Source: Desulfosporosinus acidiphilus SJ4
Lineage (GTDB): Bacteria; Bacillota; Desulfitobacteriia; Desulfitobacteriales; Desulfitobacteriaceae
DNA: 64,000 bases
Direction of reading: 5' to 3'
Assembly: GCF_000255115.2 (NCBI RefSeq)
Contig: NC_018068.1
Span: 1,955,977 to 2,019,976, forward strand
In this document: positions 39,652-55,865 of the stretch, piece by piece
Numbering within the stretch: the first letter of the stretch is position 1
How the letters are laid out: each line of letters begins with the position of its first letter
The notes under the pieces: model-generated
The model's input: only the letters and a program-made list of their open reading frames with translations
Database searches by the model: none
Told to the model about the DNA's origin: nothing
Translations under genes and position numbers: made by a program

Positions 39652-40956
39652 GTGAAAGAACATCAAGAGAGTGCCGTGGACAAATTATGGCGCATCTTCA
39701 GTTCCATGAAATTAGGACTGGTTTTGCTTGGAGTTATTGCATTCTTCGCTGGTATAGGAACCTTATTTCCTCAGATGGATGTTGATCCCGACAAAGCTCA
39801 GGCAGTGGGCAAGCTGTGGCAGACCTTAGGATTTACGAATCTCTATGGTACATACTGGTTTCGTTTGCTGTTAGGCCTGCTGTGTATTAATCTCATTATC
39901 TGCAGCATTCAAAGGTTCCAAGGCATTTATAACCGGACGTTTAAACTTAACCCTCCGGAAAACAGCAGCGTCATACCTAAAAAGGTTCAGGAGACATGGC
40001 AAGGAGACGGCGAATCCCTGCGCAAATCTGTACAAGATGTTTTGCGGCATAGGGGTTTTAGAGTCGTTTTTGCTGAAAAAGACAAGCAATGGGGTTTTAC
40101 AGCCATAAAACGACGCTGGGGAAATTGGGGATCCTTCATTTCTCATGTGTCCTTTGTTGTTTTGGTTATCGGAGCTGTCATCGGCTCTTCTCTGGGATTC
40201 AAAGGCTTCTTGATGGCAGGTACGGGGACGACAGTGCCCATCCATTCCATTCAAGTATCCCGGGGTACTGTCAAGGAAACCTTTGATGTCCTGATTAATT
40301 CGGCAGAAGATCGTATGTTAGCCAATGGTCAGAGAGATAATTGGTATACGGATCTGAGCATTTTGCAGAATGGCAAGGTTATGGCCCGCCATACCATTTC
40401 CGTTAATCATCCGTTTACTTATCAAGGAGTTACCTTCTATCAATCCAGTTTTATTAACGGGGTTCATCTTACCGCAGATGTTAAAGGACAGAAGATTCCC
40501 GTTACCTTGGAAGATCGAGGCGGAAATTATTTTAATGCTCCTGGGACAGATCTCTATCTTGTAGCATCAGCGATTAATAGTGATTCTCAAAAACCTTCGA
40601 TGCTATTTGAGGTTTTTAAGGGTATGAGTGAGGATGCTGTACAGTCCGGCCAGCTTGATTTTGGGCAAACCATTGATATTCAAGGTGCTTATAAACTTAC
40701 TCTCGATGGGAACTCCGGCTATACAGGCTTACAAGTCAAACAAGATCCGGGGGTTATGATTATCTGGTTAGGATGTGCCTTATTGCTTCTGGGGTTAATC
40801 TTGTCCTTTTACTGGCGCCCGATTCTTGTCAGCGGCATATTTCAGGCTGAGAAGGACAACCGGGGAGAGTTAACCATGGGTGTTTCCACTGGAAAAGTAG
40901 TTGGCGGTGTTAAAGAGGTCTTTGACCGATTAGTTGGAGAAATACGAGCAAACTAG
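39652..40956 (+). CDS. resB: Cytochrome c biogenesis protein ResB (Ccs1)
   Basis: A 434-residue protein with three N-terminal hydrophobic segments, a large soluble domain (about 215-355) and a final transmembrane helix (about 365-385). The early SSMKLGLVLLGVIAFFAGIG segment and the HPFTYQGVTFYQSSF stretch are family blocks. With CcsA it forms the system II heme-c synthase on the outer face of the membrane. AAGGAGG precedes the GTG start. It begins the cytochrome maturation and tetrapyrrole block. Confidence 0.92.
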   Translation: MKEHQESAVDKLWRIFSSMKLGLVLLGVIAFFAGIGTLFPQMDVDPDKAQAVGKLWQTLGFTNLYGTYWFRLLLGLLCINLIICSIQRFQGIYNRTFKLNPPENSSVIPKKVQETWQGDGESLRKSVQDVLRHRGFRVVFAEKDKQWGFTAIKRRWGNWGSFISHVSFVVLVIGAVIGSSLGFKGFLMAGTGTTVPIHSIQVSRGTVKETFDVLINSAEDRMLANGQRDNWYTDLSILQNGKVMARHTISVNHPFTYQGVTFYQSSFINGVHLTADVKGQKIPVTLEDRGGNYFNAPGTDLYLVASAINSDSQKPSMLFEVFKGMSEDAVQSGQLDFGQTIDIQGAYKLTLDGNSGYTGLQVKQDPGVMIIWLGCALLLLGLILSFYWRPILVSGIFQAEKDNRGELTMGVSTGKVVGGVKEVFDRLVGEIRAN

Positions 40957-40988
40957 TAAAAGAGTATCAAGGTAAGGAGGATAAAATC

Positions 40989-41849
40989 TTGAATCTTGGA
41001 TTACAGAACCTTGAATCATCTGCGTTTTACGTTACGGTGATGGCTTATATTCTTTGCATGATGCTATATTGGGTTTGGATCGGTATAAAGAAAGACCTGA
41101 TTGGCAGTTTGGCAACCTACATCGCGGCTCTCGGTCTGATAGCTAATACGGCAGCCATTGTTATTCGCATGGTAATTTCAGGACATCCGCCGCTGTCTAA
41201 TGGCTACGAATTCCTTTTAACCTTTGTTTGGGGAATTATGGCAGTTTATTTGTATATCGAGTATCGTTACAAGTTAAAGTCATTGGGTGCTTTTGTGATG
41301 CCCATACCTGTCTTGCTCTTGATGTTTATCATTATGAGCATGGGGCCTGAGGAACGGGTAGCTCAGGCAATTCCTCCGGCTTTAAAAAGCCAATGGCTTA
41401 CTTTCCACGTGGTAACTGCTATGCTGGCCTATGGAGCCTTTGCCATCTCCTTTGGTTTGGGGATCATGTACCTTCTTAAACTTAAGGAAGAAGGCAGGGG
41501 ATGGGAAGCGAAACCTCAAGGGATTATTGCCCGTTTTCCGGATTTAGAAACCCTTGATGAATTGTCCTATAAAGTGATAGGGTTTGCTTTTCCTCTTTTA
41601 ACCCTTTGCATTATTACCGGAGCAATCTGGGCAAATTATGCTTGGGGTACTTATTGGTCCTGGGACCCCAAAGAAACTTGGTCTTTAATTACATGGATTA
41701 TTTATGCAGCTTATTTACATGCCCGTTTGATGTATGGCTGGAAAGGAAAACGTGCGGCTTGGATGGCTGTCTTAGGTTTCGCCGCCGTATTATTTACGTT
41801 CTTTGGAGTTAACTACTTCTTACCGGGACTGCACTCTTACGCCCAATAG
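40989..41849 (+). CDS. ccsA: Cytochrome c biogenesis protein CcsA (ResC-like)
   Basis: A 286-residue membrane protein with eight hydrophobic segments and the heme-handling tryptophan-rich motif WGTYWSWDPKETW (about 218-230). His residues before and after it (WLTFHVV, YLHARLMY) are in place. It exports or presents heme for attachment to apocytochromes with ResB. The TTG start follows AAGGAGG. Confidence 0.93.
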   Translation: MNLGLQNLESSAFYVTVMAYILCMMLYWVWIGIKKDLIGSLATYIAALGLIANTAAIVIRMVISGHPPLSNGYEFLLTFVWGIMAVYLYIEYRYKLKSLGAFVMPIPVLLLMFIIMSMGPEERVAQAIPPALKSQWLTFHVVTAMLAYGAFAISFGLGIMYLLKLKEEGRGWEAKPQGIIARFPDLETLDELSYKVIGFAFPLLTLCIITGAIWANYAWGTYWSWDPKETWSLITWIIYAAYLHARLMYGWKGKRAAWMAVLGFAAVLFTFFGVNYFLPGLHSYAQ

Positions 41850-41951: not shown

Positions 41952-42590
41952 ATGCCGCAGTATTATCCGATTTTTATGGATTTAAAGGATCAATCCATTT
42001 TGGTTGTTGGAGGAGGAAACGTGGCTCTGCGCAAAGTACAGACTCTATTGAAACATGGGGCCGTCGTTCGTGTTGTTTCTCCGGAAATTGTGCCCGAGCT
42101 GAGAAGTTTGATCAATGATACGACTTGTTGTTGGTTTGAAAAAGAATATTCCTCGGAAGACATTGGCGAAGCCCGCCTCGTTTTTTCCTGCACTGAAAAT
42201 GAAGAAGTCAATAGGCAAGTGTCATTTGATGCCAAGAGTCAATATCGTCCAGTTAATGTCGTGGACGATCCCGAAAAATGCAGCTTTATAGTTCCCTCCA
42301 TTATGGAGCAGGGAGATTTGAAAATAGCTGTTTCCACAGGAGGAAGTAGTCCTATTGTAGCCCGGCAGATACGCGCAGAATTGGAAAAGCTATTTGGATC
42401 CGAGATGAAGGAGTATTTGCGCTTACTGAAAACTTGGCGTACTATTGTCAAAAATGATTTGTCGCCCGAAAAACGGAGCGTATTTTGGGAGCGTATAACG
42501 GACGGCGAAGTCAGGAAACTAATTCAAGAGAACCGACTATCCGAAGCGGAAGGAGTGGTTAAGCAGTGTTTCCAATCGCTGTTGGCTTAA
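41952..42590 (+). CDS. Precorrin-2 dehydrogenase / sirohydrochlorin ferrochelatase-type protein
   Basis: A 212-residue protein like the N-terminal part of CysG and yeast Met8. It has an NAD-binding loop ILVVGGGNVALRKV (16-29), the NVVDDPEKCSFIVPS stretch (about 98-112) and STGGSSP. It oxidises precorrin-2 to sirohydrochlorin; whether it also inserts iron is not clear. In this organism siroheme is the precursor of heme, so it is a pathway core enzyme. The end overlaps hemA by 25 bases. Confidence 0.92.
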   Translation: MPQYYPIFMDLKDQSILVVGGGNVALRKVQTLLKHGAVVRVVSPEIVPELRSLINDTTCCWFEKEYSSEDIGEARLVFSCTENEEVNRQVSFDAKSQYRPVNVVDDPEKCSFIVPSIMEQGDLKIAVSTGGSSPIVARQIRAELEKLFGSEMKEYLRLLKTWRTIVKNDLSPEKRSVFWERITDGEVRKLIQENRLSEAEGVVKQCFQSLLA

Positions 42591-43903
42591 ACCACCAAGG
42601 GACGCCTGTCGAAATAAGAGAGAAAATGAGTTTTCAACCTTCTCAGATTCAGGAGGCCTTAAAAAAGCTAAGGAATTATCCTGCGCTTGAAGGTGTTCTA
42701 ATTCTCAGTACCTGTAATCGAACCGAAGTGTATGCTGCCACAACAGATGTTGAAGTGGGTATTGTCTCCATTAAAAAATTTCTGTCGGCTCATCACGGTA
42801 TCGACGAAAAACTTTTAAACCAATATCTTTATGTCCATACCCTTTATGATGCTATTCGTCATTTGTTTAGGGTAACAGCAGGCTTAGACTCTATGGTTCG
42901 CGGAGAAACTCAAATTCTCGGACAAGTTGCCAGTGCATATCAGCAAGCTAATGACGCAGAAGTTACGAACAAGGCTATTAATGTCTTCTTTCAAACGGCC
43001 CTGGCCGTAGGCAAACGAATTCGTACGGAAACTCAAATTGATCAGCATCCTGTCTCTATTAGCTATACGGCGGTGGAGCTTGCCAAGCAACAGTACGGAG
43101 AGCTCCAGGGAAAAGGAATTTTAATTTTAGGTGCGGGTGAAATGAGCACCTTAACGATCCGAAACTTGGTTGCTGCCGGAGCCTCCACAGTTATGGTTTC
43201 CAACCGTTCTTATGATAAGGCTGTTTCTTTGGCTGAAGAATTTTCCGGTCAGGCGGTTCGCTTTGATGAGATGGATAAGCACCTTGAGACTGTGGACATC
43301 GTAATTTCCGCTACGGCTGCCACTCATTTTGTAATTCTCCCTGAGCGAATGAAGACGATTATGGAAAAGCGCCAAGGGCGTCCTTTGTTGCTTATTGATA
43401 TAGCGGTTCCCCGGGATATCCATCCTGATGTCAAAGAGATCGAGCATATAACCTTATTTGACATTGATGACTTGCGAGGAGTGATCGATCGCCATCATCA
43501 GGAACGAGAGCTTGCCGCCCTCAACGCTGAGAAAATTATTGAAGAGGAAATGAACCGGTTCGTAAAATGGCATAATTCACTGTTTGTTGTTCCAACCATC
43601 GTTGCTCTGCAGCAAAAGGGTCAACAAATTAAAGATGCGCAGCTGGAACGGGCCATCGAGCGTTTAGGCGGATTAACGCCAAAACAGGAAAAGATTGTGA
43701 GGTCAATGGCTAATTCTATAGTCAACCAGCTCTTACATGTGCCAATTACCAACCTTAAAGAATATGCTTCCACATCTCAAGGGCATCTTTACACAGAAAT
43801 TTTACAAAACCTTTTCGACTTAGATGTTGAGGAAGAAACGAAACGGCAAATGACGCTTGTAAATCAGCATATAAGTCCTGTGCGCCATGGGAGGGCAGAA
43901 TGA
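42566..43903 (+). CDS. hemA: Glutamyl-tRNA reductase
   Basis: A 445-residue enzyme with the catalytic Cys50 in [19 protein letters not shown], and a NADPH-binding [17 protein letters not shown]-terminal dimerisation helix follows. It makes glutamate-1-semialdehyde from glutamyl-tRNA, the entry to tetrapyrroles. The GTG start lies inside the end of the previous gene, with GGAGTGG upstream. It overlaps hemC by 4 bases. Confidence 0.96.
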
Positions 43904-44811
43904 AGAAGATTCGAATCGGAACAAGAGACAGTCAGTTGGCTATGTGGCAGGCAGAGTGGGTGAAACATCGGCTCGAGCAGCTTCATCCGCATCTTAGTTT
44001 TGAGCTGGTCCCTATGAAAACCAAAGGGGATAAAATATTAGATGTACCCTTAGCCAAAATAGGAGATAAAGGTCTATTCACAAAAGAATTAGAGCATGGA
44101 CTGTTAAATAATCAATTGGATATGGCCATTCACAGCCTTAAGGACTTGCCGACAATGTTGCCGGAGGGCTTAGAAATATGCACTTTTTGTGAACGAGAAG
44201 AACCAAGAGATGTTTTTTTAAGCAAAAAGGGAATACTCTTGGAAGAATTACCCGAAGGTGCCTTAGTAGGTACGAGCAGTTTGCGTCGTAAATCCCAGCT
44301 CAAGCATTATCGCCCTGATCTGTGCTTTACAGATTTGCGGGGCAATCTCCAGACACGCTGGCGAAAGCTGCAAGAGTCGGAGATGGATGGTATCGTCCTG
44401 GCTGCAGCAGGGGTAAAACGATTAGGATGGGAAGAGAGGATTACGCAGATTCTTTCCGAAGATCTTGTGCTTTCGGCAGTAGGGCAAGGATCTATTGCCG
44501 TTGAAATCGCCCAACAGCGTGATGATATTCGTGGTTTGCTGGCTCCTGTCAATCACCCCGAAACTGAACTTGCTGTCCGCGCGGAACGAATGTTAATGCG
44601 TAAACTTGAAGGAGGGTGTCAAGTCCCCATTGGGGCCTTAGGTCAGGTTACTGACGGGAAGATTTTCCTCAAAGGGATGGTTTCCAGCCTTGACGGAAAC
44701 CGCTTGCTGAAAGCGGAAGGAAGAGGCACTGATCCTGAAAGCGTTGGAATTGAAGTTGCCGATCAATTGCTTAGTTTAGGTGCTGCAGAAATCTTAGCTG
44801 AAATTCGCTGA
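43900..44811 (+). CDS. hemC: Hydroxymethylbilane synthase
   Basis: A 303-residue enzyme. HSLKDLP (78-84) contains catalytic Asp82, and Cys240 in [11 protein letters not shown] carries the dipyrromethane cofactor. It polymerises four porphobilinogens. The start overlaps the hemA stop by 4 bases and follows GGGAGG. A short leader with a promoter-like element separates it from cobA-hemD. Confidence 0.96.
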
Positions 44812-44874
44812 GGAAATTGTACGCTAAAAACTTATCACTAAGTGCTCCAAATCACAAAAGTCGTTTTGAGGATT

Positions 44875-44955
44875 TGTTATAATGGTTATGAACCCATGAT
44901 CTATACTCAAAGAACATGGGACGGTTCTGCTGTAACTTGGAACCGTCCCCATTTT
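44875..44955 (+). promoter_or_regulatory. Extended -10 promoter and overlapping hairpins before cobA-hemD
   Basis: TGTTATAAT (44875-44883) is an extended -10 box. The leader then offers CCCATG (44893-44898)/CATGGG (44915-44920) and GGGACGGTTC (44918-44927)/GAACCGTCCC (44940-44949). They share GGG, so they compete. The second is followed by a weak T run (CATTTTC). This could be an attenuator or just a terminator for hemC. Confidence 0.5.
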
Positions 44956-44992
44956 CATAGTTGCATCTTCAGCATAGATAGGAGTGTTCAGG

Positions 44993-46510
44993 TTGAATAA
45001 AGGATATGTATATTTAGTCGGGGCTGGCCCGGGAGATCCAAAGTTAATCACGATTAAGGGTTCGGAATGTATTGCCAAGGCAGAGGTTTTAGTTTACGAC
45101 CGCCTGGCGTCCCGGCGCCTTTTGACCCTTGCCCGCCCGGATTGTGAACTTATCTATGTTGGGAAATCGCCGGATCGTCACACCCTTAAGCAGGATGAGA
45201 TTAACCAGCTTCTTGTAGACAAAGGACTTGAGGGTAAAATTGTGACTCGTCTTAAAGGGGGCGACCCTTTTGTTTTTGGCCGGGGAGGAGAAGAAGCGGA
45301 GGCTCTCTTAGAAGCAGGAATTCCCTTCGAAGTCGTTCCGGGGATTACTTCTGCCATTTCAGTTCCTGCCTATGCCGGAATTCCCGTGACCCATCGGGAT
45401 TTAACATCGTCTTTTGCTGTCATAACGGGTCATGAAGATCCCACCAAAAATGAAACGTCGATTCAGTGGAATCATATTGCCCAATCCCACGGCACTCTTG
45501 TATTTCTCATGGGAATGGAAAACCTTCCTTTGATTGCCCAAAAACTTATGGAGAATGGGAGAAAGCCAACAACTCCCGTTGGGATTATTCAATGGGGCAC
45601 GAGACCGGAACAGCGCACTTTGGTGGGATCGTTAAATAACATAGCCGAAAAGGTTAAAGAAGAAGGATTTACCAATCCCTCAATTATTATTGTCGGTGAG
45701 GTTGTTTCCCTGCGGGAAAAACTTCAATGGTTTGAAAAGAAACCGTTGTTCGGCCAGAGAATCATTGTCACTCGGGCACGCCATCAAGCTAGTGAATTGT
45801 CCCAGGCCATAGAAGCTTTAGGTGGAGAGGCCTGGGAATTTCCGGTAATTGAGATTGCCCCGCCAACGGATAAAACGTCGCTGTTGAAAGCCATAGAGGA
45901 TCTAAAAAGCTTTCAGTGGCTTATTTTTACCAGTGTTAATGGAGTAGAAACCTTTTTCGCAGAACTTTTAGAGCAGAAACGAGATGTGCGGGATTTGGCA
46001 GGTATAGAGCTAGTTGCCATCGGCCCGGCCACAAAAGCGGCCTTAGAGAAGCGTGGGCTGAGAGTGGCTTATGTACCTGAAGAGTACCGGGCGGAAAAGA
46101 TTGTTGAAGGTTTAAACGGCCGTGTTAAGGCAGGAGATAAGGTTTTGCTGGCGAGGGCGGAAGAAGCCAGGAACATTCTTCCTGATTCTCTGAAAGGCAT
46201 GGGTGTTGAGGTTTGGGATGTTCCTGTTTATAAGACGATACTCGGCAGTGCTAATCAGGATGAACTGCAGAAGATGCTGCAAAATAAGGAAATTGATAGT
46301 GTTACTTTTACAAGTTCATCTACGGTGAAGAATTTTATGAAGTTATTGGATGGAAAAATGGATTTACTGCAGAATGTTTTGCTTTATTCCATCGGACCCA
46401 TAACCAGTGCAACTGCCCGTGAACTGGGACTTACAATGCACAGAGAAGCTTCAGAATATACCATAAATGGCCTTGTCGATGCCTTACTGGAGGGAAAAAA
46501 GCATGATTAG
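44993..46510 (+). CDS. cobA-hemD: Uroporphyrinogen-III C-methyltransferase fused to uroporphyrinogen-III synthase
   Basis: A 505-residue fusion. Residues 1-245 are the SAM-dependent methyltransferase (VGAGPGDP at 9-16, RLKGGDPFVFGRGGEE). Residues from about 255 are uroporphyrinogen-III synthase, with FTSVNGVETFF and FTSSSTVKNFM. It closes hydroxymethylbilane and methylates the product to precorrin-2 in one protein, committing flux to siroheme. The TTG start, 8 bases after GGAG, gives the family N-terminus. It overlaps ahbC by 8 bases. Confidence 0.95.
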   Translation: MNKGYVYLVGAGPGDPKLITIKGSECIAKAEVLVYDRLASRRLLTLARPDCELIYVGKSPDRHTLKQDEINQLLVDKGLEGKIVTRLKGGDPFVFGRGGEEAEALLEAGIPFEVVPGITSAISVPAYAGIPVTHRDLTSSFAVITGHEDPTKNETSIQWNHIAQSHGTLVFLMGMENLPLIAQKLMENGRKPTTPVGIIQWGTRPEQRTLVGSLNNIAEKVKEEGFTNPSIIIVGEVVSLREKLQWFEKKPLFGQRIIVTRARHQASELSQAIEALGGEAWEFPVIEIAPPTDKTSLLKAIEDLKSFQWLIFTSVNGVETFFAELLEQKRDVRDLAGIELVAIGPATKAALEKRGLRVAYVPEEYRAEKIVEGLNGRVKAGDKVLLARAEEARNILPDSLKGMGVEVWDVPVYKTILGSANQDELQKMLQNKEIDSVTFTSSSTVKNFMKLLDGKMDLLQNVLLYSIGPITSATARELGLTMHREASEYTINGLVDALLEGKKHD

Positions 46511-47681
46511 TGTTACAAAGCTCTTATTTGATACGGAGTATTTCGGCGACTCTTTGCGCTACAGTCAAAACTCTCTGGGAGCCAAACACGGTACGACGGT
46601 TGATTCCGGGCCAGTCGTTGTTTGGAATATGACCCGGACTTGCAATTTGAAATGTGCCCACTGCTATATGGAATCTGACGCACAAAAGTATGCCGGAGAA
46701 CTGACTACTGAAGAAGCCAAACGCTTTATTGACGACTTGGCAGAGTTTAAATCCCCGGTTATTCTTTTCTCAGGAGGAGAGCCTTTAATTCGCCCTGATT
46801 TTTTCGAGTTGGCTGAATATGCCATATCTAAAGGGTTAAGGGCTACCCTGTCCACCAATGGCACCCTAATCACACCGGAAGTTGCCAAACGATTAAAAGA
46901 AATCGGTGTATCCTATGTAGGTATCTCTTTAGACGGACTTCAAGATGTTAACGATAAGTTTCGGGGTAAAGAGGGGGCATTTAAGGCAGCCATGGAAGGC
47001 ATCCAAAACTGTGTTGCCGTAGGACAGCGGGTTGGGCTGCGCTTTACTATTAATCATCATAATTTTCAGGAACTCGATAAGATCTTTGATTTTATCGAAG
47101 CTGAAAATATCGATCGGGTCTGCTTCTATCATTTGGTGTATTCCGGACGAGGCAGTCAGATGATCAGTGAAGACGTAACTCCTGAAGAATCTCGACAAGC
47201 TATGGAGACTATTATCCGGCGCACCCGGGATTTTGAAGAACGGGGATTGAAAAAGGAAATTCTTACGGTTGACAATCATTGTGACGGGGTTTTTATGTAC
47301 CTTCAAGCGTTCAAAGATGATCCCAAGAAGGCCGAAAAAATCAAGGGCTTGATTGGCCTTAACGGCGGTAATCGTTCAGGAATTGCCTTCGGAGAAGTTG
47401 ATCCTATGGGGTATGTGCATCCCGATCAATTCACTCAACACATTACCTTTGGCAATGTTCGGGAGCGTAAATTCGGAGAGATTTGGACGGATCTTTCGCA
47501 ACCGATTCTTGCCGGGCTTAAAGATAGAAAACCCCTGCTCAAAGGCCGCTGTGCTTCCTGCAATTTCTTAGATATGTGCAACGGCAATTTCCGCACCCGT
47601 GCCGAAGCTGTGACAGGAGACTTCTGGGAATCTGACCCGGCTTGTTATTTGACAGACGAGGAGATTGGGATTAGTAAGTAG
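46503..47681 (+). CDS. ahbC: Radical SAM protein AhbC (12,18-didecarboxysiroheme deacetylase; NirJ1-like)
   Basis: A 392-residue radical SAM protein: Cys47-x3-Cys51-x2-Cys54 (CNLKCAHC) and a C-terminal SPASM-type cysteine cluster (CASCNFLDMC and DPAC, Cys381). The N-terminus (MISVTKLLFDTEYFGDSLRY) is typical of NirJ1/AhbC. It removes two acetate side chains from didecarboxysiroheme to give Fe-coproporphyrin. Operon position between cobA-hemD and hemB/ahbAB supports this over other SPASM functions. Confidence 0.87.
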   Translation: MISVTKLLFDTEYFGDSLRYSQNSLGAKHGTTVDSGPVVVWNMTRTCNLKCAHCYMESDAQKYAGELTTEEAKRFIDDLAEFKSPVILFSGGEPLIRPDFFELAEYAISKGLRATLSTNGTLITPEVAKRLKEIGVSYVGISLDGLQDVNDKFRGKEGAFKAAMEGIQNCVAVGQRVGLRFTINHHNFQELDKIFDFIEAENIDRVCFYHLVYSGRGSQMISEDVTPEESRQAMETIIRRTRDFEERGLKKEILTVDNHCDGVFMYLQAFKDDPKKAEKIKGLIGLNGGNRSGIAFGEVDPMGYVHPDQFTQHITFGNVRERKFGEIWTDLSQPILAGLKDRKPLLKGRCASCNFLDMCNGNFRTRAEAVTGDFWESDPACYLTDEEIGISK

Positions 47682-47819: not shown

Positions 47820-48794
47820 ATGGACCTGAAAAGACGCCCGCGACGGCTACGGTCTAGCGAGACAATCCGCAGAATGGTTCGAGAAAACCATCTGCGCATC
47901 GATGATTTGATTTATCCTATGTTTGTCATGCCTGGCGAGAATGAGAGAGTGGAAGTCTCTTCAATGCCAGGAGTATATAACTATTCTCTGGATGAATTTG
48001 TAAAGGCTTTGAACGAAGTGGTAAAATTAGGGATACCCGCAATTTTACTGTTCGGTATCCCTGAGAGTAAAGACAGTGTCGGCACAGGGGCCTATGATGA
48101 ACACGGTATTGTCCAAGAAGCTGTGCGTATCGCGAAAAAACATTATCCTGAGCTTTATGTTATAACGGATGTTTGTCTTTGTGAGTATACCGACCACGGA
48201 CATTGCGGAGTTATTGATCACGGACAGATTTTGAACGATCCGACCTTAGACCTTTTAGCTCAGACAGCCCTTTCCCATGCCCGCGCAGGTGCGGATATGG
48301 TTGCCCCTTCTGATATGATGGACGGAAGAGTTGCAGCCATTCGGGATTTGTTGGATCGGGAAGGGTTTACTCATATTCCCATCATGGCTTACTCAGCTAA
48401 ATTTGCTTCAGGGTTTTATGGCCCCTTTCGTGAGGCCGCCGGTTCGGCACCTCAGTTTGGGGACCGCAGGACCTATCAAATGGACCCGCCTAACGGGAAC
48501 GAAGCAATGCTGGAGACAGCTTTAGATATTGAAGAGGGTGCGGATATGATTATCGTTAAGCCGGCTTTAGCCTATGGCGATATTATCTGCCGCACCAAAG
48601 ATAGATTTGGCTTGCCCATTGCCGCGTATAATGTCAGCGGGGAGTATGCCATGGTTAAAGCTGCTGCTGCCAACGGCTGGATCGATGAGAAACGTATCGT
48701 CATGGAAGCCTTAGTCAGCATGAAACGCGCGGGAGCCGATTTGGTAATTACCTATCATGCTCTCGATGCAGCACGTTGGTTAAGAGAGGGTTAA
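47820..48794 (+). CDS. hemB: Porphobilinogen synthase
   Basis: A 324-residue TIM-barrel enzyme. The zinc cysteines are present (Cys119, Cys121, Cys129 in [14 protein letters not shown]), as are both Schiff-base lysines: Lys194 ([11 protein letters not shown]) and Lys247 ([11 protein letters not shown]). It condenses two 5-aminolevulinates. AGGAGG precedes the ATG. The 138 bases upstream hold only a weak GTTCAGTTAAACTGA hairpin followed by CATTGGATAA, perhaps a decayed palindromic repeat. Confidence 0.96.
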
Positions 48795-48795
48795 G

Positions 48796-49011
48796 ATGGG
48801 AGGGACGTCCGTGATGGTATCTTGGAATACGACGAATGCCTGCAACCTGTTTTATGATCACTGTTACTGTGGATATAAACAATTATGCGGTGGCTGCCGG
48901 GCGCGGGCTGCCTATTATAGTGAAGGGGATTACACGGCTGAGGAGCCATTGAGCTTGTATCAGGGAAGGGAGGGGGGTTGGCATGGATTCCGCCGATCGT
49001 ACGCTGCTTAA
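48796..49011 (+). pseudogene. ahbD: Internally deleted ahbD (NirJ2-like heme synthase) remnant
   Basis: The frame stays open for 71 codons but encodes only the two ends of a radical SAM/SPASM protein. VSWNTTNACNLFYDHCY (8-24) is the radical SAM start; CGYKQLCGGCRARAAYY follows at once and is the C-terminal SPASM block. About 280 central residues are missing. The second cysteine of the CxxxCxxC motif is Tyr, and the usual Cys of the PLCxY end is Ser (EEPLSLY). AhbD would turn Fe-coproporphyrin into heme; this product cannot. The order hemB-ahbD-ahbAB is that expected for an intact operon. Its 3' end overlaps ahbAB by 29 bases. Confidence 0.75.
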
Positions 49012-49999
49012 CGAGATCCAAAAACAATTTCCCATTGAGGTTCATCCCTATGAAATCCTTGGCATCGTTGCCGGAATTACAGAAGAGAATGCCTTCACGC
49101 GGATTCAGCGGCTTCGCCGGGAAGGAATTATCCGTCGTTTAGGCGGGGTTTTCGATTCTCGGAAATTAGGGTATTATAGTACGTTGTGTGCAGCGAAAGT
49201 TCCGGAAGAGAAGATTTCAGACTTGGCTGACTTACTTAACAAAATCCCGGGGGTAACCCACAATTATATCCGCGAGCATGACTATAATGTCTGGTTTACC
49301 TTGATAGCCCGGTCAGAGGAAGTTGCCGAGCGTATTATTCAGAGGATTCGTACTGAGTTAGAGATTTCTGAAGTATTTAGCCTTCCAGCCACACGACTAT
49401 TTAAAATTAACGTTAATTTTGATTTTAGCGAAGAGGAAGATGCCCAAGACGATTCCTTAAGTTCGCCTGAAAGTGGAGAACAAGGATCAACCAACAGAGG
49501 AAGCAGTCAACCTTTTGACCTAACCGATGCAGACATTTCTCTGATTCAAATGATTCAAGGCGATCTGCCGGATTCCCCAACTCCTTTTACGGTTCTGGCC
49601 GAAAAACTCAACTGGCCGGTTGAGAAGCTGATTTCCCGCGCCAAAGACTTATTGGATGCCAAAGTTTTGCGCCGCTTTGGTGCCGTGTTAAGACACCAAA
49701 AAGCCGGTTTTGTTGCGAATTCTATGGGTGTTTGGCAAGTGGAGCTTGACCGGGCAGAAGAGGTCGGAAAAATCATGGCCCAATTTAAGGAAGTCAGCCA
49801 TTGTTATCAAAGACCAACCTTGTCCGATTGGCCCTATAATTTATTTACGATGATCCATGGCAAAACCATGGAGGACTGTGACGAAATCATGAAAAGGATT
49901 TCTGCGGCCACAGGCGTTACTGATTATTCCATGCTTTTTAGTACTGCAGAATTGAAAAAGAGCAGTATGCAGTATTTTCTTGAAGAAGAGACGTTTTAG
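48983..49999 (+). CDS. ahbAB: Siroheme decarboxylase, AhbA-AhbB fusion
   Basis: A 338-residue protein made of two Lrp/AsnC-like halves. Residues 1-150 have LLNEIQKQFPIE and RRLGGVFDSRKLGY; residues 179-338 have FGAVLRHQKAGF and a similar domain. A polar, Ser/Gly/Glu-rich linker (about 150-178) joins them. In other organisms the halves are separate AhbA and AhbB (or NirD-L/G-H proteins) that decarboxylate siroheme at C12 and C18. The ATG follows GGGAGGGGGG and lies inside the ahbD remnant. Confidence 0.9.
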   Translation: MDSADRTLLNEIQKQFPIEVHPYEILGIVAGITEENAFTRIQRLRREGIIRRLGGVFDSRKLGYYSTLCAAKVPEEKISDLADLLNKIPGVTHNYIREHDYNVWFTLIARSEEVAERIIQRIRTELEISEVFSLPATRLFKINVNFDFSEEEDAQDDSLSSPESGEQGSTNRGSSQPFDLTDADISLIQMIQGDLPDSPTPFTVLAEKLNWPVEKLISRAKDLLDAKVLRRFGAVLRHQKAGFVANSMGVWQVELDRAEEVGKIMAQFKEVSHCYQRPTLSDWPYNLFTMIHGKTMEDCDEIMKRISAATGVTDYSMLFSTAELKKSSMQYFLEEETF

Positions 50000-50022: not shown

Positions 50023-51312
50023 TTGCCGTTTGTTGATGAAAAAAGCAGCCAAGCCTTTGCCAAAGCCAAAAGAGTTATTCCCGGGGGGGTTAATTCTCCG
50101 GTAAGAGCCTTTAAATCGGTAGGCAGGGATCCTGTATTTATTGACCGGGCTGAAGGCGCTTATCTCTGGGATATTGACGGCAACCGTTATGTTGATTATG
50201 TAGGCTCTTGGGGACCGCTCATCGTTGGTCATGCTCATCCTGAAGTGGTAGAAGCGATAAAACGGGTGGCCGAACGAGGCACAAGTTATGGTGCGCCGAC
50301 AGAAGTTGAAACGGAATTGGCAGAGGAAGTACTTAAAGCTTACCCTTCCATGGAAATGATCCGGATGGTTAATTCCGGGACGGAAGCCACGATGAGTGCT
50401 TTGCGTCTGGCCAGAGGAGTTACAGGCAGAACGAAGATTGTTAAATTTGAAGGCTGTTATCATGGACATGCCGATCAGCTTTTAATTAAGGCCGGAAGTG
50501 GTGCCCTGACTTTTGGTGTGCCTACATCTCCCGGCGTCCCGCCTCAAACTGCGGCGACCACGATCTCTGCACGGTATAATGATCTGGAAGGACTCAGGGA
50601 AATTTTCCAACGTGAAGGAGAAGACATTGCCGGGGTAATTCTTGAACCGGTTACCGGCAATATGGGAGTGGTCCTGCCGGGAGAAGGATTCTTACAGGGT
50701 GTCCGCCGTCTGACGGAAGAGTATGGTGCCTTGCTGATCTTTGACGAGGTTATGACAGGTTTTCGGATTAGTTATGGCGGTGCGCAAGCCCATTATGGCA
50801 TTGATCCGGATTTGACCTGTTTGGGCAAAGTCATCGGGGGAGGGCTGCCTGTAGGGGCGTATGGCGGGAAAAGACGTTTTATGGAGCAAATATCTCCCAG
50901 TGGTCCTATTTATCAAGCAGGGACGTTATCGGGAAATCCCTTGGCCATGAATGCCGGTTTAACGACTCTCAAATTGCTGCAGCAACCCGGTGTCTATGAG
51001 GAACTAAATCGTAAGACGTCTCGCTTAGCGGAAGGTCTAAAACGTATTGCTAAAGAGGCTGGACTTCCGGTTTGGGTTAATGCTCTCGGGGCTATGTTTT
51101 CTGCCTTCTTTACCGATGTGCCTGTTAAGGATTATGCCAGTGCCTGTACCTCAGATGTTGAACGGTTTGCAAAGTATTTTCGGGGTATGCTTGAGAAGGG
51201 TATCTACCTGGCACCGAGCCAGTTTGAGGCAGTTTTCTTATCTGCGGCACATACTGATGCGGATATCGATAATACTCTTGAGCAAGCCCGCTTAGTCATA
51301 AAAACCCTTTAG
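50023..51312 (+). CDS. hemL: Glutamate-1-semialdehyde 2,1-aminomutase
   Basis: A 429-residue PLP enzyme. Lys269 ([11 protein letters not shown]) binds the cofactor; [15 protein letters not shown] and FDEVMTGFR are typical. It makes 5-aminolevulinate from the product of HemA. The TTG start follows AAGGGGGG. It completes the block: with hemA, hemB, hemC and cobA-hemD, every step from glutamyl-tRNA to precorrin-2 is present. Confidence 0.96.
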
Positions 51313-51403: not shown

Positions 51404-51697
51404 ATGGAAAGAAAACACGTATTAAGAACCATCATTACCGTTGCTTTATTTGGAGCCTTAGTTACAGTCATCATTATTTCGCAGAACCACGATCCTTCTA
51501 ATCCACATTCATCAATTCCCAAAAATGTTTGGATAAACGGACCCAAAGGTCATGGCTATGCAGTTCTCAATAATCAACAGCCTTGGAAACAATGTTACCC
51601 TTGTCATGAAAAAAAGGGTCTGGGCGGGGAACAGTTTTGCCAGAGTTGTCATGTAAAATCAAAGGTCAATGTAACACTGCCTAAGAAACCTTCCTAG
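51404..51697 (+). CDS. Small membrane-anchored diheme cytochrome c-like protein
   Basis: A 97-residue protein: an N-terminal hydrophobic anchor (8-26) and an outside domain with two heme-binding sites, Cys64-x2-Cys67-His68 and Cys79-x2-Cys82-His83, only 15 residues apart. His50 could be an axial ligand. It lies just after hemL and in the same 12-kb stretch as ResB/CcsA, which would attach the hemes. It may pass electrons from menaquinol to an outside acceptor (inference). I do not know a named family. Confidence 0.8.
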   Translation: MERKHVLRTIITVALFGALVTVIIISQNHDPSNPHSSIPKNVWINGPKGHGYAVLNNQQPWKQCYPCHEKKGLGGEQFCQSCHVKSKVNVTLPKKPS

Positions 51698-53805: not shown

Positions 53806-54876
53806 ATGAAGGTTGTCAAAAAGGGATCGATCAATCGTGGAAAATTAATTTACAATTTTGTTACTAAGGTTTTTCCCATGGTTAAAGAAGAACTAATGCT
53901 ATGGCGGAAGCGGGCCGAAGAAATTCCTGATTCCCGACTGAGTTCACAGGCTCTGGAAAGTATCCGGTTAAAAGCCTTTCATTGCCAGGGAGGGAGTATT
54001 TATGCCTTATATCCGGGTGCCAATCAAATAGAAACGGTTCGTTTTATTGTCGCTTACCAGACGATGAGTGACTATCTAGATAATTTAGTTGACAACTTAG
54101 AAATTGAGGATGAAATGGCATTTGCCCAATTGCATTTGGCTATGGAAGAAGCTTTAGTTTTTAAAGCGAATCTATCAGATTATTATAAGTATTATCCTTA
54201 TCAGAACGATGGAGGGTATCTCGAACAATTAGTCAAAACTTGTCAAGCGAGTCTAAAGAGCCTGCCTTCCTTTCATCTAGTCCAGGAAAATGCTCTGGAA
54301 TTAGCACGACTTTATTCTCACTTACAAACCTATAAACATTTAGAGGCAGAACGACGAGAATCGGTAATGCTTGACTGGATTGACCCCTACTTAAGAAAGT
54401 ATCCCTCAATCACGTCCTGGGAATTTGCAGCTGCCACTGGATCAACGCTGGGGATATTTTGTTTGTACGCAGCTTCTTTTGATATTGATTTACAAGCTTC
54501 TGACGTGGATAAAATTTGTCAGGCTTATTTTCCGTGGATATGTGGTCTGCATATCTTGTTAGATTATTTCATTGATCTTCGCGAAGATCGTGAAACAGGA
54601 CAGTTAAATTTTGTAGCGTATTATTCCGGCTCGGAAAGAATAGCTGATCGCTTAAAGCTTTTTATCCATAAATCATACGAAGCGGCAAAAACACTTCGCT
54701 ATAAAAAATTTGAGCGAGCAGTAGTTCAAGGACTTCTTGCCATGTACCTATCGGATGAAAAAGGTCAAGATAGAGATATTCGGTTTATAACGAAGCAACT
54801 CTTAACCAAGAGCGGGGTAGGAGTACAGGTTCTCTTTTGGATGTGTTGTTGGCTGAGAAAAAGAAACCTCCTTTAA
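53806..54876 (+). CDS. ytpB: YtpB-like tetraprenyl-beta-curcumene synthase (DUF2600)
   Basis: A 356-residue protein of the YtpB family of large terpene synthases. The acidic motifs are DYLDNLVDN (89-97) and LLDYFIDLREDRETG (251-265). In Bacillus, YtpB cyclises a C35 prenyl diphosphate to tetraprenyl-beta-curcumene, a C35 terpene made in spores. AAGGAGAA precedes the ATG. A prenyl diphosphate synthase gene faces it and overlaps its stop codon by 4 bases, so a supplied substrate is plausible. Confidence 0.85.
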   Translation: MKVVKKGSINRGKLIYNFVTKVFPMVKEELMLWRKRAEEIPDSRLSSQALESIRLKAFHCQGGSIYALYPGANQIETVRFIVAYQTMSDYLDNLVDNLEIEDEMAFAQLHLAMEEALVFKANLSDYYKYYPYQNDGGYLEQLVKTCQASLKSLPSFHLVQENALELARLYSHLQTYKHLEAERRESVMLDWIDPYLRKYPSITSWEFAAATGSTLGIFCLYAASFDIDLQASDVDKICQAYFPWICGLHILLDYFIDLREDRETGQLNFVAYYSGSERIADRLKLFIHKSYEAAKTLRYKKFERAVVQGLLAMYLSDEKGQDRDIRFITKQLLTKSGVGVQVLFWMCCWLRKRNLL

Positions 54877-55865
54877 TATGTACGCTGCAAAATCAAATCC
54901 GAAAGATTTAGGAGAGCTGTTCGATAAGGACTGGGCGGGATTATATTTAAGCTGTTTTTAGCCTTTTCGACACATTGGGCAGCGGCTAAATGAGCTTGAT
55001 TCAGGCATCCGGAACTCATCAGAGCTTCATAAATGCTGTTCAGCCCTTGAGGAGTGACACGCTGAGAATTGATAATTTCCTGCAGCCAGTTGCCATATAT
55101 TGGATTGTCTTTGAGATAAATAAGCGGCAGAGTCATATTGCCATTTTGCAGATCGGCTCCGACAGGTTTACCTAAAGAGTCTGAAGAGCTGTTAAGATCC
55201 AGGATATCGTCCGTGATTTGATACGCGTAGCCGATGTTTAAACCAAACTCTCGCAGACTGAGGATTTCTTCAGTTCCGGCATTTGCTAACTGGGCACCTG
55301 ATTGACAACAGGCTGCCAGAAGAATTCCTGTTTTTTGGGCAATTCGTTTAAAATATTGGTCCGTTCCGATGGCCGAGGAAAATTGCTCTTTAGCTTGATT
55401 CACCTCTCCCGCACACATTGCTTGAATGGCCTCAATGAAGAAGCTCATGCATTTTAATAGCTTTTCTGTTGAGAGAATATTAAATGCTTCAGCAAAGAGA
55501 TAATCTCCGGTCAAAATAGCAGCATGGTCTCCATACACCGAATTTGTTGTTGGTTTTCCACGTCTTGTTGCAGATTTATCAATGACATCATCATGAATCA
55601 AGGAAGCCATATGAATTAATTCGGCGGCAACTGAAGCTCTAAGTATTAAGGGATTTAGAGGACCAAAGCACATCCCGCTGTAGAGGGTCAATAATGGCCG
55701 TACCCTTTTGCCGCCTGATTTTAGTAAGATGCCGCAGGTTTTTTGAATGAGACCATCCGCTTTATTAATTATTTCGTTCAGTTGATCTTCCACAAATAGT
55801 AATTCTGGAAATTTTAAGGATCCCATCAACATGTCGCTAGGTTTATGTAGTTCTTGAATACTCAT
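54873..55865 (-). CDS. Polyprenyl diphosphate synthase, second copy
   Basis: A 330-residue trans-prenyltransferase with KSGGKRVRP (49-57), DDVID (92-96) and DDILD (219-223). It is a paralogue of the synthase at 38444. It is convergent with ytpB with a 4-base overlap of the 3' ends, so the two genes are physically tied. It may make the C35 substrate for YtpB or serve another prenyl product. The ATG has only a weak ribosome site. Confidence 0.9.
   Translation of the reverse strand: MSIQELHKPSDMLMGSLKFPELLFVEDQLNEIINKADGLIQKTCGILLKSGGKRVRPLLTLYSGMCFGPLNPLILRASVAAELIHMASLIHDDVIDKSATRRGKPTTNSVYGDHAAILTGDYLFAEAFNILSTEKLLKCMSFFIEAIQAMCAGEVNQAKEQFSSAIGTDQYFKRIAQKTGILLAACCQSGAQLANAGTEEILSLREFGLNIGYAYQITDDILDLNSSSDSLGKPVGADLQNGNMTLPLIYLKDNPIYGNWLQEIINSQRVTPQGLNSIYEALMSSGCLNQAHLAAAQCVEKAKNSLNIIPPSPYRTALLNLSDLILQRTY

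Follow-up and report, generated by a model that had tools for sequence, protein, structure and literature searches.

A nirJ2 remnant in the heme operon

The window (the whole stretch of 64,000 nucleotides analysed here) comes from the genome of a sulfate-reducing Desulfosporosinus, of 4,991,181 bases in three contigs (G000). In the open reading frame listing, an open frame at 48796-49011 lies between hemB and a fused ahbA-ahbB gene. The features of the region, all on the plus strand, are:

39652-41849, plus strand: resB and ccsB, cytochrome c maturation and hence heme demand (PF05140 at G000:C3:1995682, about 39706 in the window; TIGR03144)
41952-46510, plus strand: precorrin-2 dehydrogenase domain, hemA, hemC and cobA/hemD (NCBIfam profiles)
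46467-47681, plus strand: ahbC (NirJ1; NCBIfam profile TIGR04054, 706 bits, match from residue 14)
47820-48794, plus strand: hemB, porphobilinogen synthase (NCBIfam profile)
48796-48810, plus strand: in-frame upstream ATG at 48796, with GGGAGGG at 48798-48804 (by eye)
48811-49011, plus strand: nirJ2 (ahbD) stub from the homologous start GTG, 66 codons and stop (open reading frame, profile match, relatives)
48811-48867, plus strand: 19 codons kept from the N-terminal end of nirJ2, with Tyr in place of the second RS-cluster Cys (codon comparison)
48868-48978, plus strand: 37 codons kept from the C-terminal end of nirJ2, with Ser in place of the last Cys (codon comparison)
48963-48977, plus strand: purine run GGGAAGGGAGGGGGG within the stub, likely Shine-Dalgarno region of ahbAB (by eye)
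48979-49011, plus strand: read-through beyond the lost ancestral stop, overlapping ahbAB (relatives)
48983-49999, plus strand: fused ahbA-ahbB, siroheme decarboxylase (NF040708 over residues 5-148, NF040707 over residues 187-331)
50023-51312, plus strand: hemL (NCBIfam profile)
51404-51697, plus strand: 97-residue protein carrying two CXXCH motifs, a probable small cytochrome c and hence heme demand (motifs)

AhbC, HemB, AhbA-AhbB, HemA, HemC, CobA/HemD, HemL and the precorrin-2 dehydrogenase domain all give full-length family matches, which bears out the original prediction that the other Ahb-route genes are intact. The NCBIfam search returned no match for the 97-residue CXXCH protein. AhbAB evolves faster than its operon neighbours, with a median pN of 0.158 against 0.061-0.071 for hemB, ahbC and hemL (G000, G006-G008, G010, G014, G015, G017, G018, G021 and G044). 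Further downstream, at 53806-55865, a polyprenyl diphosphate synthase gene (HepT-like) is convergent with a gene for a 356-residue protein without an NCBIfam match, which we take to resemble a YtpB-type terpene synthase.

The best NCBIfam family for the stub is TIGR04055 (NirJ2), at 57 bits and thus below the cut-off of 500 for the whole protein. The match falls into two stretches, the better of which places residues 25-56 on positions 294-325 of the 326 in the profile, and the stub protein aligns with both ends of intact nirJ2 from relatives. The frame is, as proposed from the sequence, only the two ends of a NirJ2/AhbD enzyme. The large internal deletion that had been proposed is likewise evident, although its size was put at about 280 residues and codon comparison gives about 275 codons absent between the ends, relative to the 331-residue intact NirJ2 of relatives. 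Alignment shows both of the predicted cysteine replacements, the second Cys of CX3CX2C by Tyr and the last C-terminal Cys by Ser, so the stub lacks the intact cysteine set of NirJ2/AhbD. An open frame of 71 codons does run from ATG 48796, as had been noted, but the start is probably GTG 48811, which yields 66 amino acids; GGGAGGG is, by eye, a Shine-Dalgarno-like sequence six bases ahead of this GTG and would fall within the gene if ATG 48796 were the start. The ahbAB start was correctly placed inside the frame, at 48983, an overlap of 29 nt. Most likely, an internal in-frame deletion removed the catalytic body of this nirJ2 (ahbD) gene, and the stub that is left can no longer take part in heme synthesis.

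Stubs across Desulfosporosinus

We searched 29 genomes of the genus, 28 of which have an ahbAB match; G009, without one, was left out throughout. Between hemB and ahbAB lies nirJ2 in 18 of the 28 genomes, occupying about 1 kb, and a stub at the equivalent place in the other ten. The interval in G022 is about 1.2 kb and includes a run of N, which accounts for an apparent nirJ2 frameshift (two separate matches) that we excluded. The stub intervals, counted from where the hemB match ends up to the ahbAB start, are 192 nt in G000, 103 in G005, 148 in G006, G007 and G010, 112 in G008 and G014, 71 in G012, 169 in G041 and 178 in G044. Without their stop codons the stubs are 30 to 66 residues long, and cluster cysteines are gone in several. 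Eight of the stub genomes, G000 included, are 99-100% complete, and none of these eight has a full NirJ2 at another place.

These loci represent seven deletion footprints (G000, G005, G006/G007/G010, G008/G014, G012, G041 and G044). Six of the seven keep both retained ends in one frame with the nirJ2 start; in the remaining one, G012, nothing but the last nirJ2 codons survives, no longer in frame with the former start, so that start and frame are both lost. If the footprints are independent and each has a one-in-three chance of being in frame, the probability of at least six in frame among seven is p=0.007; among clear independent origins only, three of four are in frame (p=0.11). In an operon tree built from seven proteins of 27 genomes (G022 was omitted for its run of N and a wrong ahbC match), stubs occur in four places. 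Five of them (G044, G041, G000, G008 and G014) form a group with a split support of 90 under midpoint rooting, which may reflect one loss or several. The trio G006, G007 and G010 is sister to G017, G018 and G021, which have intact nirJ2 (support 90), and the stub genomes G005 and G012 are sisters to the intact G019 and G001, respectively (support 100 for each).

Two further genomes have unusual frames at this junction. At G001:C60:1512-3521 (L052, L081), an intact nirJ2 continues in frame into ahbAB as one open frame of 710 codons, owing to a one-base difference at the usual stop/start junction, and this is either a true fusion or a sequencing error. At G040:C90:42860-43870 (L062, L090), the ahbAB frame is open over 825 codons, pointing either to a fusion with hemL, the next gene downstream, or to an error in the sequence.

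Peptide drift and the open frame

Codon comparison covered 14 of the 18 intact genomes (G017, G020, G021 and G022 were not included) and nine of the ten stubs (all except G012). The four closest stub pairs have pN/pS values of 1.71, 0.75, 0.41 and 0.38, each calculated from 1 to 3.5 silent differences, and the 91 pairs of the 14 intact genes have values of 0 to 0.11 over 43 comparable codons. Six stub pairs across older splits have values of 0.12-0.41, which are a mix of the time before and the time after the loss. In all, 35 distinct stub residues are absent at their position from the 14 intact genes. The stub peptide is largely free to change, as seen for close relatives over few sites. Premature stops are absent from the nine stubs, compared with 2.8 expected from as many non-silent changes (P=0.07), and the start codon is kept in nine of the ten. 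The load of unusual residues is uneven (11 in 55 codons in G000, 2 in 53 in G044 and 1 in 28 in G005), so some stubs may simply be young.

The junction with ahbAB is tight. Outside G000, all nine stub loci have a TAG that ends one base ahead of the ahbAB ATG; the overlap of stub and ahbAB is special to G000 among the ten. By eye, a purine run able to serve as the ahbAB Shine-Dalgarno sequence sits in the last nirJ2 codons of nine stub loci, and runs like GGGAAGGGAGGGGGG are present in relatives' loci. The stub stop of G000, 28 nt downstream of the ahbAB start, is not an ideal geometry for coupling. At the 3' end of relatives' nirJ2, immediately before the Shine-Dalgarno region of ahbAB, the PWCLYHG codons can fold into a small hairpin, which may be due to codon constraint alone. 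A promoter scan of 2.5 kb found 11 promoter-like sites (4.0 expected), none of them within 48796-48983, and an ahbAB promoter inside the stub was ruled out on this basis.

That the frame stays open through translational coupling to ahbAB, as the original prediction suggested, is supported indirectly by the in-frame deletions, the lack of premature stops and the near-neutral peptide change in close relatives. With the Shine-Dalgarno region and start of ahbAB at the stub end, ribosomes would pass through the stub in order to start well on ahbAB. The dead gene has thus probably been kept translatable for this coupling; the simplest account would be that ahbAB depends on translation passing through the stub. 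Early stops or out-of-frame deletions in the stub would then be expected to lower AhbAB.

The last step of heme synthesis

Heme is needed in these bacteria: cytochrome bd subunit I is present in 26 and ResB in 28 of the 29 genus genomes, and in the window resB-ccsB lie upstream of the operon and the CXXCH protein downstream of it. With AhbAB and AhbC intact, the gene content shows that the pathway still reaches Fe-coproporphyrin III. Neither ChdC (PF06778, matched in control genomes such as Bacillus subtilis) nor ferrochelatase of the protoporphyrin or coproporphyrin route (PF00762, matched in 8 of 14 control genomes) has a match in any of the 29 genomes. Both were therefore rejected as the last step, and the earlier suggestion that a coproheme decarboxylase might finish heme is not supported. 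Its counterpart, a heme synthase encoded elsewhere, found a candidate in a TIGR04053 AhbD-like gene of the same genome, for which the activity is presumed:

G000:C3:1055944-1057098 (L031:3945-5099): T53, a solo radical SAM gene of 384 residues (TIGR04053)

T53 is the sole strong AhbD-like protein in G000 besides AhbC. At 479.6 bits it lies above the TIGR04053 cut-off of 395 and belongs to that family; it scores 359.5 bits against the AhbD equivalog TIGR04545, short of the cut-off of 500, and 227 bits against NirJ2. Of 82 genomes in the class, 11 have T53 at an E-value of 1e-90 or better, and every one of these is a Desulfosporosinus; G012 has a fragment at a contig end that is 99% identical over residues 1-139. 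Counting this fragment, T53 is present in 8 of 10 stub genomes compared with 4 of 18 with nirJ2 (p=0.005), where fragments were sought in ten genomes only, so that the latter count may be too small by one fragment. Among AhbC-positive genomes without G012, T53 is found in 7 of 8 lacking NirJ2 and in 4 of 16 having it in the genus (p=0.008), or 4 of 57 in the class (p=3.6e-6); these Fisher tests treat genomes as independent and ignore shared ancestry. Both genes distinguish the close sisters G012 and G001, the former having T53 and a stub and the latter intact nirJ2 without T53. T53 and nirJ2 coexist in G015, G017, G018 and G021, and T53 does not, therefore, force the loss of nirJ2. T53 was not found in the stub genome G005, which is 79% complete. 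The stub genome G041 (rated 100% complete with 9% contamination) has no match to T53 or another AhbD-like protein, and has cytochrome bd and ResB.

Transfer of T53 among species

T53 DNA is 91-97% identical among the 11 carriers, from about 60-260 nt upstream of the gene to just past its stop. Beyond this shared stretch there are at least six settings, which differ even between the close relatives G006 and G007; flanks are shared downstream by G000 and G014 and in part by G017, G018, G007 and G010. The median pS of T53 is 0.14, versus 0.75, 0.75, 0.69 and 0.71 for hemB, ahbC, ahbAB and hemL of the same hosts. Among the very close G017, G018 and G021, T53 is as diverged as the host genes. We interpret these patterns to indicate that T53 moved between species by horizontal transfer. 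We considered ordering T53 gain before nirJ2 loss from the insertion sites that G017 and G018 share with G007 and G010, which proved not usable, since gene and flank were probably transferred together (T53 pS of 0.09-0.13 between these pairs, compared with 0.62-0.69 for host hem genes).

The shared stretch includes a promoter-like pair, TGGACT-17-TAAAAT, in a scan that found 5 sites where 3.6 were expected. A palindrome, AAGTCCATCAATGGACTT, lies at the promoter-like site (L031:3850-3950 and other T53 loci) and could be a regulator site; by eye it is perfect in G044, G008 and G012, imperfect in most other T53 loci and missing in G015 and G017. After the T53 stop, folding gives a 12-bp hairpin (z -4.75), which the pattern scan for terminators did not flag. 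In 11 genomes, the 420 nt before the T53 match and the 220 nt after it have no exact 11-mer in common, inverted or direct, and repeats at the unit ends were rejected accordingly.

Relatives of T53 and its likely function

Outside the genus, the nearest T53 matches are in Bacillales (58-77%) and Paenibacillus (53%). In both of two Paenibacillus loci, a T53-type gene is followed by a protoporphyrinogen/coproporphyrinogen oxidase gene (hemY/cgoX) and by one for an iron-sulfur repair protein, and narG lies farther along. The Oceanobacillus TIGR04053 locus has narG and an Fnr-like gene, and that of Bacillus timonensis has NarK. Eight neighbour probes applied to 23 of the 26 non-Desulfosporosinus loci found such neighbours at five (L137-L141, with L138 having only YwiC- and Fnr-like genes) and a HesB-like gene at 12. 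On one Thermus plasmid the TIGR04053 gene sits between nitrite reductase and a cytochrome c, and another tetrapyrrole role of T53 is possible in view of this nitrite reductase neighbour and of the AhbD cut-off (TIGR04545) that T53 does not reach. A plasmid record of 2,894 bases labelled Campylobacter jejuni (H1, NZ_CP029056.1) carries a TIGR04053 gene 58% identical to T53; the contig may be mislabelled or a contaminant.

When six TIGR04053 proteins are aligned with one NirJ2, C36, C40, C43, C344, C347, C353 and C374 are invariant. T53 thus has the motif set of AhbD in the wider sense, an RS CX3CX2C, a C-terminal CX2CX5C and a further Cys (PMC10452713). Two further NirJ2 cysteines, which by alignment position would be AuxI ligands, are Ser in all six TIGR04053 proteins; T53 keeps the RS and AuxII cysteines and lacks the full SPASM with AuxI cysteines that a subset of AhbDs has. 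AhbDs have been divided into full and AuxII-only kinds, and in the relevant passages of that 2023 survey no AuxII-only enzyme had been studied biochemically (PMC10452713). The solved structures related to T53 by sequence are four, SkfB, PqqE and two cytosylglucuronate decarboxylase entries, all of them other radical SAM enzymes.

A haloarchaeal gene offers a comparison. Knockout of Haloferax volcanii HVO_2144, listed as ahbD (PMC8305020), caused poor growth without oxygen, and added heme restored growth by DMSO respiration and, in part only, denitrifying growth (PMC5746218). A Haloferax larsenii gene that aligns with T53 at 41-42% has a setting like that of HVO_2144, with halocyanin, a NorB-like oxidase and a multicopper oxidase, and three of the 14 control genomes, H. 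volcanii among them, have a TIGR04053 match at 1e-90. The haloarchaeal AhbD with knockout evidence is, judging from these matches, probably in the same family as T53. From its association with nirJ2 loss and the haloarchaeal genetics, both of them indirect, we infer that T53 would convert Fe-coproporphyrin III to heme b.

Discussion

Reading the locus together with its relatives, we favor, with reasonable but far from complete confidence, an explanation in which the frame is a gutted nirJ2, T53 is its transferred substitute and the frame has been kept open for the translation of ahbAB. The last heme step would be done by T53 as a separate radical SAM enzyme, and the spread of T53 in the genus by horizontal transfer would have made the operon nirJ2 dispensable, the order of T53 gain and nirJ2 loss being presumed. 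A wider proposal, for and against which we see about equal weight, is that a mobile AuxII-only heme synthase (TIGR04053, as a self-contained unit of about 1.3-1.4 kb) is spreading in Desulfosporosinus and driving the parallel loss of the full-SPASM AhbD, and that the gutted genes persist as relay frames selected only for translation into ahbAB.

The stub frames could be open simply because the pseudogenes are young, without selection for translation, in which case the T53 replacement may still hold. We regard this as possible but somewhat unlikely: the probability of 0.07 for the lack of stops by chance, the three of four clear origins in frame (p=0.11), the few unusual residues of G044 (2 in 53) and G005 (1 in 28) and the purine-rich start region that ahbAB has of its own all fit young pseudogenes, whereas six in-frame footprints of seven (p=0.007) and the frame of G000, open despite 11 unusual residues in 55 codons, do not. 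A new functional micropeptide, such as a small Fe-S or regulatory peptide, might explain why nine of ten stubs keep the start codon and both protein ends. Yet the lengths range between 30 and 66 residues, several stubs have lost cluster cysteines, change is near neutral in close relatives and almost nothing is left in G012, so this seems highly improbable. The relatives share no single conserved 71-residue protein; the sharing of such a protein is what the original prediction had named as evidence against a remnant. It had also named an assembly collapse that hides an intact ahbD, to which we give practically no credence, given shortened loci in ten assemblies with seven footprints, including the single-contig G007 and drafts of named isolates, and no full NirJ2 elsewhere in G000.

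It is a separate question whether T53 is the substitute. An unrecognised enzyme, heme uptake or coproheme as end product might instead account for the loss of nirJ2, with T53 put to some other use, such as a part in heme d1 or nitrogen-oxide respiration. Arguing for this are the G041 stub without T53, the co-occurrence of T53 and nirJ2 in four genomes, the Thermus homologue beside nitrite reductase and the TIGR04545 cut-off that T53 does not reach. Counter to it, T53 is associated with nirJ2 loss, between the sisters G012 and G001 both genes change together, the closest characterised kind of enzyme is AhbD, and there is the haloarchaeal knockout phenotype (PMC5746218). On balance we consider it unlikely that T53 is not the substitute.

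Parts of this picture have precedents. AhbABCD-like genes have been described in Dehalobacter, a relative (PMC4751268), and a 2023 review notes AhbD as an oxygen-independent coproheme decarboxylase beside hemY/hemH/hemQ (PMC10548856). A 2024 paper, in the passage concerned, calls the enzyme for the oxygen-independent coproheme step of Bacillaceae unknown (PMC10965808). Searches of the open-licence literature found neither the name TIGR04053 nor Desulfosporosinus together with AhbD, and the passages they returned show nothing on such nirJ2 stubs. The reaction, the Ahb route and AhbD are already known; to these the case would add a resident enzyme displaced in parallel by a transferred relative, with a dead gene whose frame is still open.

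The analysis closes an apparent gap in heme synthesis by naming a testable substitute, T53. Should T53 work as presumed, it would give a function to the radical SAM family TIGR04053 and show that AhbDs with one auxiliary cluster suffice. If T53 is indeed spreading as proposed, the displacement would be a natural experiment in which AuxII-only AhbDs act as true heme synthases, and TIGR04053 would become a candidate family for the coproheme step that nitrate-respiring Bacillota take without oxygen; the genes beside hemY/cgoX and narG at two Paenibacillus loci fit such a role. The parallel stubs also provide a natural test of whether operon position selects for the translation of a dead gene.

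The stub is best compared with the NirJ2-type AhbD (TIGR04055), the operon's heme synthase candidate, of which it keeps both ends and the place in the operon; unlike that protein it is short of about 275 codons and two cluster cysteines and is not an enzyme. T53 passes the cut-off of the TIGR04053 family, which includes the H. larsenii gene, and keeps the RS and AuxII cysteines, but the H. larsenii gene lies in a denitrification cluster whereas T53 is a solo gene in a genus with an Ahb operon. The second-best family for T53 is TIGR04545, the AhbD of Methanosarcina barkeri and Desulfovibrio, a characterised heme synthase whose reaction, from Fe-coproporphyrin III to heme b, is presumed to be the same for T53; in contrast to its members, T53 is below the cut-off of 500 and has Ser in place of the placeable AuxI cysteines. 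The whole would be of a general kind, xenologous gene displacement with a pseudogene remnant. As is usual there, a relative (T53) would have come in and the resident gene (nirJ2) has eroded; here, however, the displacement would have run in parallel in several lineages, with mostly frame-preserving erosion directly before a close-set downstream gene.
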